From an uncultured Arenicellaceae bacterium (GTDB lineage: Bacteria; Pseudomonadota; Gammaproteobacteria; Arenicellales; Arenicellaceae): 52,222 nucleotides of DNA. The stretch is from positions 1 through 52,222 of the forward strand of contig CALKZN010000012.1 in NCBI GenBank assembly GCA_938002995.1. Direction: 5' to 3'. A program made the translations under genes and the position numbers. The notes beneath the pieces were generated by a model. It saw nothing but the letters and a program-made list of their open reading frames with translations. It ran no database searches and was not told where the DNA came from. Shown here piece after piece: positions 36,461 through 52,222 of this stretch (position 1 is its first letter; every line of letters begins with the position of its first letter).

Positions 36461-37363
36461 TTATTTAATTTTTTTCAAAATCCCATCTAAAGCTGACAAA
36501 CTTGAATAGCTGATAATCAGTTTTCCTTTGCCTTTTTTATCTTGGATTGTAACGTCAGCTTGAAGCTTATTTGATAACTCGTCTTCAAGATGTTTGATGT
36601 CAGGATCGACTTTTGCTGTTTTGTTTTTTTGTCCTTCTTGATGAGACGCTTGCTTAATCAAGGCTTCTGTTTGACGCACTGACAATTGCTTACTCACAAT
36701 CGATTCTGCGACTGCATATTGTTGTTCTTTAGGTAATGCCAATAATGCTCTTGCATGACCCATTTCAAGCTTTCTAGCAAACACAAGTTCCTTAACCCGT
36801 TCTTCAAGTGCTAATAACCTTAATAAATTTGTGACTGCAGAACGAGAACGTCCAACATGATCAGCGACTTGTTGATGCGTTAGTTCAAATTCATCCATCA
36901 ATCGATGCAGGCCAACCGCTTCTTCAATTGGGTTTAAGTTTTCGCGCTGAATATTTTCAATCAGAGCAACCGCTAAGGTCGCTTCATCGGGAATATCCCG
37001 AATGATGACTGGGACTGTATCTAGCTGCGCAATTTGCGATGCGCGCCAGCGTCGTTCACCGGCAATGATCTCGAATTGATCTTTGGCTTTTTTGCCTGGC
37101 GCCGGCCTAACTAAAATAGGCTGAAGAACTCCTTGAGCACGAATTGAATCAGCTAGCTCTTGTAAAGAGTCATCATCCATATGTGAGCGAGGTTGGTAAA
37201 CACCGCGCTGCAATTTCTCAATTGGCAACTTCGCTAAACGGTCACCTTGCCATTGGCCAGATGCAGACCCTGTTGCCTCTGATGAGTCTTTGTTAGCGGC
37301 AGGACTGATATCACCTAGCAGTGCATCTAAGCCTCGACCTAATTTTTTCTTTTTTGTTGCCAT
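36461..37363 (-). CDS. parB: Chromosome partitioning protein ParB
   Basis: KKLGRGLDALLGD, QRGVYQPRSHMDDDSLQELADSI, EIIAGERRWRASQIA, LIENIQRENLNPIEEA. Confidence 0.97.
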   Translation of the reverse strand: MATKKKKLGRGLDALLGDISPAANKDSSEATGSASGQWQGDRLAKLPIEKLQRGVYQPRSHMDDDSLQELADSIRAQGVLQPILVRPAPGKKAKDQFEIIAGERRWRASQIAQLDTVPVIIRDIPDEATLAVALIENIQRENLNPIEEAVGLHRLMDEFELTHQQVADHVGRSRSAVTNLLRLLALEERVKELVFARKLEMGHARALLALPKEQQYAVAESIVSKQLSVRQTEALIKQASHQEGQKNKTAKVDPDIKHLEDELSNKLQADVTIQDKKGKGKLIISYSSLSALDGILKKIK

Positions 37364-37418: not shown

Positions 37419-38180
37419 CTATGCCACCATTTCAGCAGCAAGCGCAAGATACGCTAAAGCACCTTTGGAGCTCTTATCATAAAGCAATACCGGCTGGCCA
37501 TAACTAGGCGCCTCCGCAAGACGAATATTTCTTGGAATAACCGTCTTGTAAACCTTATTGCCAAAATGTGCTTCAAGCTGGTCTGAGACCTCACCCGCTA
37601 GACTATTACGCGTATCGAACATTGTTCGCAGCAAGCCTTCAATTTGCAAATCTGGATTTAAGGTGTCGCGGATTTTCTTAATCGTATCAACTAATGAGCT
37701 TAAACCTTCCAATGCAAAATATTCGCACTGCATAGGGATGATGACACTATTTGCAGCCACCATGGCGTTAATTGTTAGAACATTTAATGCAGGAGGACAA
37801 TCAATAAAAATATAATCGTAGTCTTCAAGGACTTTTTTCAAAGCATTTTTTAGACGTAATTCACGGCCAATTTCATTGAGCAAACCCACTTCAGCTCCAG
37901 CCAAATCACCATCTGAAGGGACTACAGCAAAGCCCGCTTCAACAGTAATAACAGCCTCTTTTATTAGCATTCCATCAACAAGCACATCATAAATTGATTG
38001 CTCATATTCTCCCTTACGCACACCGCTACCAACAGTACCATTACCCTGTGGATCTAAGTCAATCAACAACACGCGTTTGCCAACTCTCGCTAAACTAGCG
38101 GCAACATTAATACTCGTGGTTGTTTTGCCAACTCCACCTTTTTGGTTGGTGACCGCAATCACTTTTGCTGTTTTTGACAT
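37419..38180 (-). CDS. parA: Chromosome partitioning ATPase ParA
   Basis: AVTNQKGGVGKTTTSINVAASLA (deviant Walker A), FIDCPPALNVLTINAM. Confidence 0.97.
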   Translation of the reverse strand: MSKTAKVIAVTNQKGGVGKTTTSINVAASLARVGKRVLLIDLDPQGNGTVGSGVRKGEYEQSIYDVLVDGMLIKEAVITVEAGFAVVPSDGDLAGAEVGLLNEIGRELRLKNALKKVLEDYDYIFIDCPPALNVLTINAMVAANSVIIPMQCEYFALEGLSSLVDTIKKIRDTLNPDLQIEGLLRTMFDTRNSLAGEVSDQLEAHFGNKVYKTVIPRNIRLAEAPSYGQPVLLYDKSSKGALAYLALAAEMVA

Positions 38181-49349: not shown

Positions 49350-49543
49350 ATAAATTGTGGAAATAAACTGAACAAGTTGTGGATAACATGGTATAAAAAA
49401 TTATGCACAAGTTATTCATAACTATTCAATAATTATCCACAGTTTTTAATAGAATTAAAATCAAATAAGTAATTGATAAATATAATTATTTTAGGGTTAA
49501 TCCACTTATACACCTTGTTAATAACAACAACTAAAATAACAAA
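49350..49543. other. Putative oriC (dnaA-dnaN intergenic region) with DnaA boxes and AT-rich stretch
   Basis: TGTGGATAA (49378-49386, minus orientation), TTATGCACA (49401-49409), TTATCCACA (49433-49441), then AT-rich 49442-49495; gene orientation diverges nearby. Confidence 0.75.
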
Positions 49544-50647
49544 ATGAATATTCAAATAAGTAAAGAAGCATTATTACCCGCATTAACCCATGTATGCGGA
49601 ATCGTAGAAAAAAGACAAACGTTACCAATATTAGGTAATGTATATATCAAAACAAATAATAATCAATTAACTCTAATAGGATCTGATTTAGAAACAGAAA
49701 TCACAACAACATTAGAAAATATTATTGCAGTTGATGGAGAAACAACTGTATCAGCAAGAAAGTTATTTGATATTTGTAGATCTTTAAAAGATGAATCTAT
49801 GATTTCTATCTCTCTTGAAGCTAATAAAATGTTATTAACTTCAGGAAGAAGTCGTTTCAGTTTACAAACTCTATCTGCAAGTGAATATCCATTATTAGAT
49901 ACTTCAGAAAATGAATTTGATTTTTCTGTTACGCAAGCTGAGTTTTCTTCTTTATTAGGTTCTACAGCTTATGCTATGGCTCAACAGGATGTTCGATATT
50001 TTCTAAATGGTTTATTGCTAGAAGTCGGTAATGGTTTAATTATAGCTGTATCAACTGATGGACATCGCTTAGCAAAAAATAAAATTTCTCATCCAAGCCT
50101 TTCAGGTGAAATTAAACAATCAATAATTCCAAGAAAAGCTGTACAAGAAATATCTAAATTTTTAAATACTGATAGTGATGAAAATGTTCATATTGGTTTA
50201 AACAGTTCTCATATTTCTATTAAAGCAAATAATTATCAATTTATATCTAAGCTAATAGATGGACGATATCCAGAATATGAAAAAGTTATTCCAAAAAATT
50301 TAGATAAAAATATTGTTTTAGATAAAATAATGTTTAGTGAAATATTATCTAGGACTGCAATTCTTAGTAATGAAAAGTTTAGAGGTATTTCAATAAAGTT
50401 TGAATCAGGATCTTTAATAGTGACTTCTCGTAACCCTGATCATGAAGAAGCTAGTGATGAAATGACCATAGATTATCAAGGAGAGACTGTTGAAATTGGT
50501 TTTAATGTGAACTATCTACTGGATGCAGTTCGTGGCTGTCATTCTGAAACAGTTCAATTTGAATTTAAAGACTCTTCTTCAAGTGGAATTATAAGAGAAT
50601 CTAAAGAGAGTGATAAAATTGCATTGATTATGCCTATGCGCATTTAA
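49544..50647 (+). CDS. dnaN: DNA polymerase III beta subunit (sliding clamp)
   Basis: 367 aa; LPILGNVYIKTNNNQLTLIGSDLETEI, VSTDGHRLAK, C-terminal ALIMPMRI. Confidence 0.97.
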   Translation: MNIQISKEALLPALTHVCGIVEKRQTLPILGNVYIKTNNNQLTLIGSDLETEITTTLENIIAVDGETTVSARKLFDICRSLKDESMISISLEANKMLLTSGRSRFSLQTLSASEYPLLDTSENEFDFSVTQAEFSSLLGSTAYAMAQQDVRYFLNGLLLEVGNGLIIAVSTDGHRLAKNKISHPSLSGEIKQSIIPRKAVQEISKFLNTDSDENVHIGLNSSHISIKANNYQFISKLIDGRYPEYEKVIPKNLDKNIVLDKIMFSEILSRTAILSNEKFRGISIKFESGSLIVTSRNPDHEEASDEMTIDYQGETVEIGFNVNYLLDAVRGCHSETVQFEFKDSSSSGIIRESKESDKIALIMPMRI

Positions 50648-50648
50648 A

Positions 50649-50664
50649 TGTTTCACGTGAAACA
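50649..50664. promoter_or_regulatory. parS site 1
   Basis: TGTTTCACGTGAAACA, within the perfect 24-bp palindrome TAAATGTTTCACGTGAAACATTTA (50645-50668). Confidence 0.93.
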
Positions 50665-50690
50665 TTTACTACTTGTCTTTAAATAATTAC

Positions 50691-50726
50691 AAAGCTGTTG
50701 CCTATAAAAAAGGCAACAGCTTTTTT
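50691..50726 (+). terminator. Intrinsic terminator after dnaN
   Basis: AAAGCTGTTGCC-tataaaaaa-GGCAACAGCTTTTTT. Confidence 0.88.
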
Positions 50727-50752
50727 ATATTAAGGCTTGCTAAATTGAATAA

Positions 50753-50768
50753 TGTTTCACGTGAAACA
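50753..50768. promoter_or_regulatory. parS site 2
   Basis: TGTTTCACGTGAAACA, within the 20-bp palindrome AATGTTTCACGTGAAACATT (50751-50770). Confidence 0.93.
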
Positions 50769-50837
50769 TTGTATCTATTACATTGCAGCTATTGAAAAAA
50801 TCAATGTTCGTAAGCTATTTTTGATAGAATAGGGTAG

Positions 50838-52222
<1,385 letters not shown>

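Follow-up and report, generated by a model that had tools for sequence, protein, structure and literature searches.

The window, which is the whole 52,222-nucleotide stretch of DNA analysed here, represents one entire contig of a 2.0-Mb draft genome (93.6% complete) and ends within gyrB (positions 50868–52222, forward strand, cut by the contig end). Upstream on the same strand lies dnaN (49544–50647; TIGR00663, 324.5 bits), with no recF found between the two genes in the window. The gap between dnaA and dnaN (49350–49543, no strand assigned) is 78% A+T, contains three DnaA boxes and is likely oriC. Two identical 16-mers, TGTTTCACGTGAAACA, are located between dnaN and gyrB at 50649–50664 (site 1) and 50753–50768 (site 2), likewise without strand, and both are exact matches that fit the 16-bp consensus of chromosomal parS, TGTTtCACGTGAAACA. 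Each forms the centre of a longer perfect palindrome (strandless), of 24 bp around site 1 (50645–50668), where it takes in the TAA stop codon of dnaN, and of 20 bp around site 2 (50751–50770). No T tract follows the palindrome at either site, so neither constitutes an intrinsic terminator by itself. The window harbors no further match to TGTTTCACGTGAAACA, even at 3 mismatches, a level at which shuffled sequence gives a mean of 0.37. A genome-wide search, called for by an earlier sequence-only reading, returned only these two sites at up to 1 mismatch; the next-best parS-like matches are two, each with 2 mismatches, on other contigs.

The presumed reader of the sites, parB, is encoded on the reverse strand at 36461–37363 and clears the parB_part cut-off but not the one for Noc. 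It is accompanied by parA (37419–38180, reverse strand), and both genes follow rsmG and mnmG. Four positions are described as switching specificity between ParB and Noc (PMC7383237), and by alignment the window ParB carries R, L, A and G at these positions, the R and G being equivalents of R173 and G201, both invariant in ParB. A cognate ParA and a ParB with parS-type specificity residues are consequently present in the same genome. The sequence-only reading had described two identical copies within palindromes of 24 and 20 bp, roughly 1.2 kb from the putative oriC and 13 kb from parAB, all of which agrees with the present coordinates, site 1 being origin-proximal at about 1.1 kb and parAB lying 12.5–14 kb from the sites. 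It had also named them parS, and this identification is upheld by the consensus, the proximity to the origin, the conservation of the pair (see below), the cognate ParAB and the equivalents of R173, A184 and G201 in ParB; judged from these sequence features, the pair is almost certainly chromosomal parS.

An intrinsic-terminator-like hairpin on the forward strand (50691–50723; 13 bp stem, 7 nt loop, T tail) lies between the two sites and is predicted to end the dnaN transcript, while a predicted extended -10 element of the gyrB promoter, TGATAGAAT, is found on the same strand at 50822–50830, about 57 bp downstream of site 2. The earlier description of the pair as lying in a transcribed region accordingly applies to site 1, which falls in the dnaN 3′ UTR, but not to site 2, which sits past the terminator, ahead of the likely gyrB promoter. 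The strong RNA fold of the region (z -9.7) is owed largely to pairing between the two identical palindromes on either side of the terminator, and is no evidence of RNA function. To place this arrangement among relatives, 84 distinct dnaN-gyrB gaps, each up to 700 bp, were surveyed, in which the sites of a pair are 23–407 bp apart. The 104-bp spacing in the window had been likened to 10 helical turns, a suggestion that does not survive the comparison, as 71 spacings show no phase (Rayleigh p about 0.60). Terminator calls fell upstream of the pair in 11 gaps and downstream in 2; in 3 gaps they lay between the sites, in another 3 they overlapped one of them, and in 65 none was found; two of the three between-site calls are weak and associated with long spacings, and within the window's family the terminator is mostly upstream of both sites. 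The claim of a pair flanking a terminator is correct for the window and, at 3 of 84 gaps, fails as a general design, most gaps having no terminator call. In three gaps (L007, L011 and L025) the terminator stem is formed by parS itself and followed by a T tract. The gyrB extended -10 lies a median of 55 bp past the last site, and most relatives have a similar element 42–48 nt before the gyrB start. The pair occupies the gap between successive transcription units, the 104-bp spacing and the flanked terminator being particular to the window's genome.

The order to which the window belongs, that containing Arenicella, was sampled through 109 genomes, of which 88 have a site at up to 1 mismatch, exactly two being present in 65 of the 88. 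Nearly all of the sites read from loci fall between dnaN and gyrB, paired sites being anywhere from 23 bp to about 870 bp apart. Several genomes possess only one parS. G057 has its copy flanked by the matches to parA and gidA, and in family f11 (L203–L206, L229, L230), which also belongs to the order, the lone parS is close to gidA and the dnaN-gyrB gap contains no site. RecF (TIGR00611) scores below cut-off in the window's genome and above it in 2 of the 109, both times on small contigs, while recR is present in the window's genome and above cut-off in 103 of the 109; by these profile searches, the order has lost recF and kept recR. The two small contigs (G034:C361 and G076:C272; L120 and L121) carry an intact recF with its own parS pair in bins that are otherwise recF-less. 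The recF of G076:C272 was rejected as the order's own, since the contig clusters among other recF-bearing gammaproteobacteria and apart from the dnaN-gyrB of its own genome; it is probably a contaminant, and G034:C361 is suspected of being one.

Outside the order, a DnaN profile search yielded 80 named loci, in which two parS sites lie within recF itself in Pseudomonas, Azotobacter, Halomonas, Alteromonas, Microbulbifer and others. Among 72 full RecF genes, 57 contain two parS, 6 contain one and 9 none. The embedded pair is 606–666 bp apart (about 630 bp), in a constant frame and at homologous positions. Both sites are translated as xFHV[E/K]x, one around residue 143 (in most cases preceded by “DWG”) and the other around residue 352. 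In RecF genes lacking parS the aligned columns have drifted to other peptides (FHAD, FHSD, FRVE, FRIA), so the DNA site, not the protein, appears to be what is kept; apparently, the binding site of ParB rather than RecF itself fixes the peptide at both positions. The recF sites of P. aeruginosa are already published (PMC5521831, PMC3909081), and this was the only species for which recF-embedded parS was described in the open-access literature searched. Some recF-bearing genomes have an extra parS just 3′ of recF. In the window, a 12-codon frame, MFHVKHLLLVFK, lies directly 3′ of the dnaN stop (50648–50686) and starts with site 1; its likeness to the RecF second-site peptide is probably forced by the parS sequence.

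Across a class sample of 369 genomes recF is present in 295 and absent in 74. Of the recF-less genomes with a site (n = 34), 28 have one either between dnaN and gyrB or immediately 5′ of gyrB, and close pairs (9–39 bp between 14-mers) occur in 12/74 recF-less versus 9/295 recF-bearing genomes. A quick DnaN+GyrB tree of 97 rows, in which several basal recF-bearing branches are poorly placed, requires at least 4 changes in recF, and every recF-lacking clade in it holds gap parS, the recF-less rows having been chosen through such sites. The window pair shares with the recF pair its number and its location between dnaN and gyrB, and departs from it in that recF is gone and the spacing is 104 bp, not about 630 bp. 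The ancestral chromosome would have carried two parS within recF, as most sampled gammaproteobacteria do; recF would then have been lost in the lineage and its coding sequence completely eroded, with at least one and usually two parS retained in the shrunken dnaN-gyrB gap. We are fairly confident that the window pair is a centromere whose position and number were inherited from the recF parS pair.

The alternative is that the gap sites arose or moved there independently of those in recF, a place near oriC and between a terminator and a promoter being suited to ParB loading. No recF remnant rises above noise in 107 dnaN-gyrB gaps, which leaves no intermediate; the sites could be re-creations that followed the loss. 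The spacings point the same way, varying over 23–407 bp in the 84 gaps and up to about 870 bp elsewhere in place of about 630 bp, as do the extra sites just after recF and the recF-gyrB region of Caulobacter, a hot spot tolerating new parS (PMC5815017). Inheritance is further countered by recF-less genomes with one site, by the gidA site of f11 and by the fact that two parS per genome are common in the phylum anyway. Against an independent origin stands the recurrence of the same interval, usually with the same number of sites, in at least four separate recF losses, and we regard such an origin as rather unlikely. Position, number and the repeated independent cases favour inheritance from recF over re-creation at the same place.

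In established ParABS systems, parS loads ParB and forms the centromere. By analogy with this family, CTP-bound ParB dimers would load at both sites of the window, ParB clamps would spread over the origin region, and ParA would move the ParB-bound origins apart after replication. P. aeruginosa has four such parS sites, of which any single one is enough (PMC4368675). The pair might instead chiefly let ParB regulate gyrB, as well as read-through from dnaN, as the short distance from the last site to the conserved gyrB extended -10 and the halving of gyrB mRNA by excess ParB in P. aeruginosa (PMC5521831) would allow. However, removal of ParB or mutation of parS1–4 in that species raised only PA0010–PA0015, without raising the genes that adjoin the recF sites (PMC5521831), a parS placed close to gyrB in Caulobacter did not alter transcription of that gene (PMC5815017), and in most recF-bearing species read the sites are within recF. 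Regulation of gyrB as the main role is thereby improbable; control by ParB is possible at high ParB and, by these published data, unsupported at native levels.

The palindromes at the gap sites extend beyond what the core requires. When left and right flanks of 174 intergenic sites were re-paired at random (5000 shuffles, with kinship between genomes still in the data), arms of at least 4 bp beyond the 14-mer were present at 24 sites versus 3.0 expected, a count reached in 0 of 5000 shuffles, and arms of at least 8 bp at 7 versus 0.1 expected. The extra arms are real. The excess at 4 bp amounts to 12/34 versus 1.5 expected in the window's family and 12/140 versus 2.3 outside it, with no significant excess in families f2 and f3; it is equal for first and second sites and weaker for recF-embedded sites (8 versus 2.5 expected). 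Arm sequences are distinct between sites in 23 of 24 cases, for instance TATTTAT/ATAAATA at the first site of L016 versus TAGATT/AATCTA in its congener L031, making sequence contacts with ParB unlikely. The second site of L008 (core at 1539, dnaN direction) is a 46-bp perfect palindrome with 16-bp arms beyond the 14-mer. That all palindromes extend in this manner was rejected, 0 of 103 control palindromes having arms of at least 5 bp, in an imperfect control since chance palindromes are young; parS elsewhere in the phylum showed no arms of at least 5 bp in a small sample of 38 sites, only 9 of them intergenic.

One explanation would make the palindromes mainly RNA hairpins serving dnaN, as transcript end or in termination, with ParB binding secondary. 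It draws on the terminator stems formed by parS in L007, L011 and L025, on arms exceeding the core far above chance and on the location of site 1 and its arms within the dnaN 3′ UTR. Yet a T tract accompanies only 3 of the 24 long-armed sites, first and second sites have the same excess, and the core sequence itself is conserved although pairing does not need it; such a role is highly improbable, and termination accounts only for the three arms with T tracts. The arms could derive from template-switch copying or from selection for the palindrome. With the core held by ParB, template switching would yield arms that are concerted and lineage-specific. Combining both parts of the argument, we tentatively propose, at slightly less than even confidence, that centromere sites can survive the loss of their host gene and that the core, now free of coding constraint, seeds perfectly complementary, non-conserved arms through hairpin-templated copying at the replication fork.

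Unusual arrangements were also encountered. One genome from another gammaproteobacterial family, itself without a recF match, has 12 parS cores with a 43-bp period just upstream of gyrB (L164:1286–1759, G225:C48), an array that is unusual for a chromosomal centromere. Four cores with a 62-bp period occur at a locus without a dnaN or gyrB match (L199:1500–1699, G436:C157), and five CGTTCCACGTGRAAC-type sites, 513–642 bp apart, are found downstream of dnaN in MAG GP_4 (L092), at a locus without a recF or gyrB match.

The repeated losses of recF point to persistence of the site rather than of the gene, and to a centromere separable from the gene that hosts it. Two stretches of the RecF peptide are apparently dictated by the binding site of ParB in most of the gammaproteobacteria sampled. 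Being symmetric and specific to each lineage, the arms can serve as natural replicates for asking how bacterial palindromes grow and whether greater length alters ParB loading.

Among known systems, parS1 and parS2 of P. aeruginosa are alike in their 16-mer family, in having two sites between dnaN and gyrB near oriC and in the cognate ParAB nearby (PMC5521831, PMC3909081); they differ in lying inside recF, at the 606–666 bp seen in the RecF genes read, whereas the window pair is intergenic, 104 bp apart and without recF. Hyphomonas neptunium (2/2 TGTTTCACGTGAAACA) and chromosome I of Burkholderia cenocepacia have two sites in total with the same consensus (PMC7022226), the comparison covering number and consensus. 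The arms resemble the evolution of hairpins by template switching at quasipalindromes, in which arms become perfectly complementary in concert while their sequence is lineage-specific (PMC8794818, PMC7202029). That system is known for RNA genes and test loci, unlike the window, where a protein-binding site forms the fixed centre and the same mechanism would be at work by inference only.
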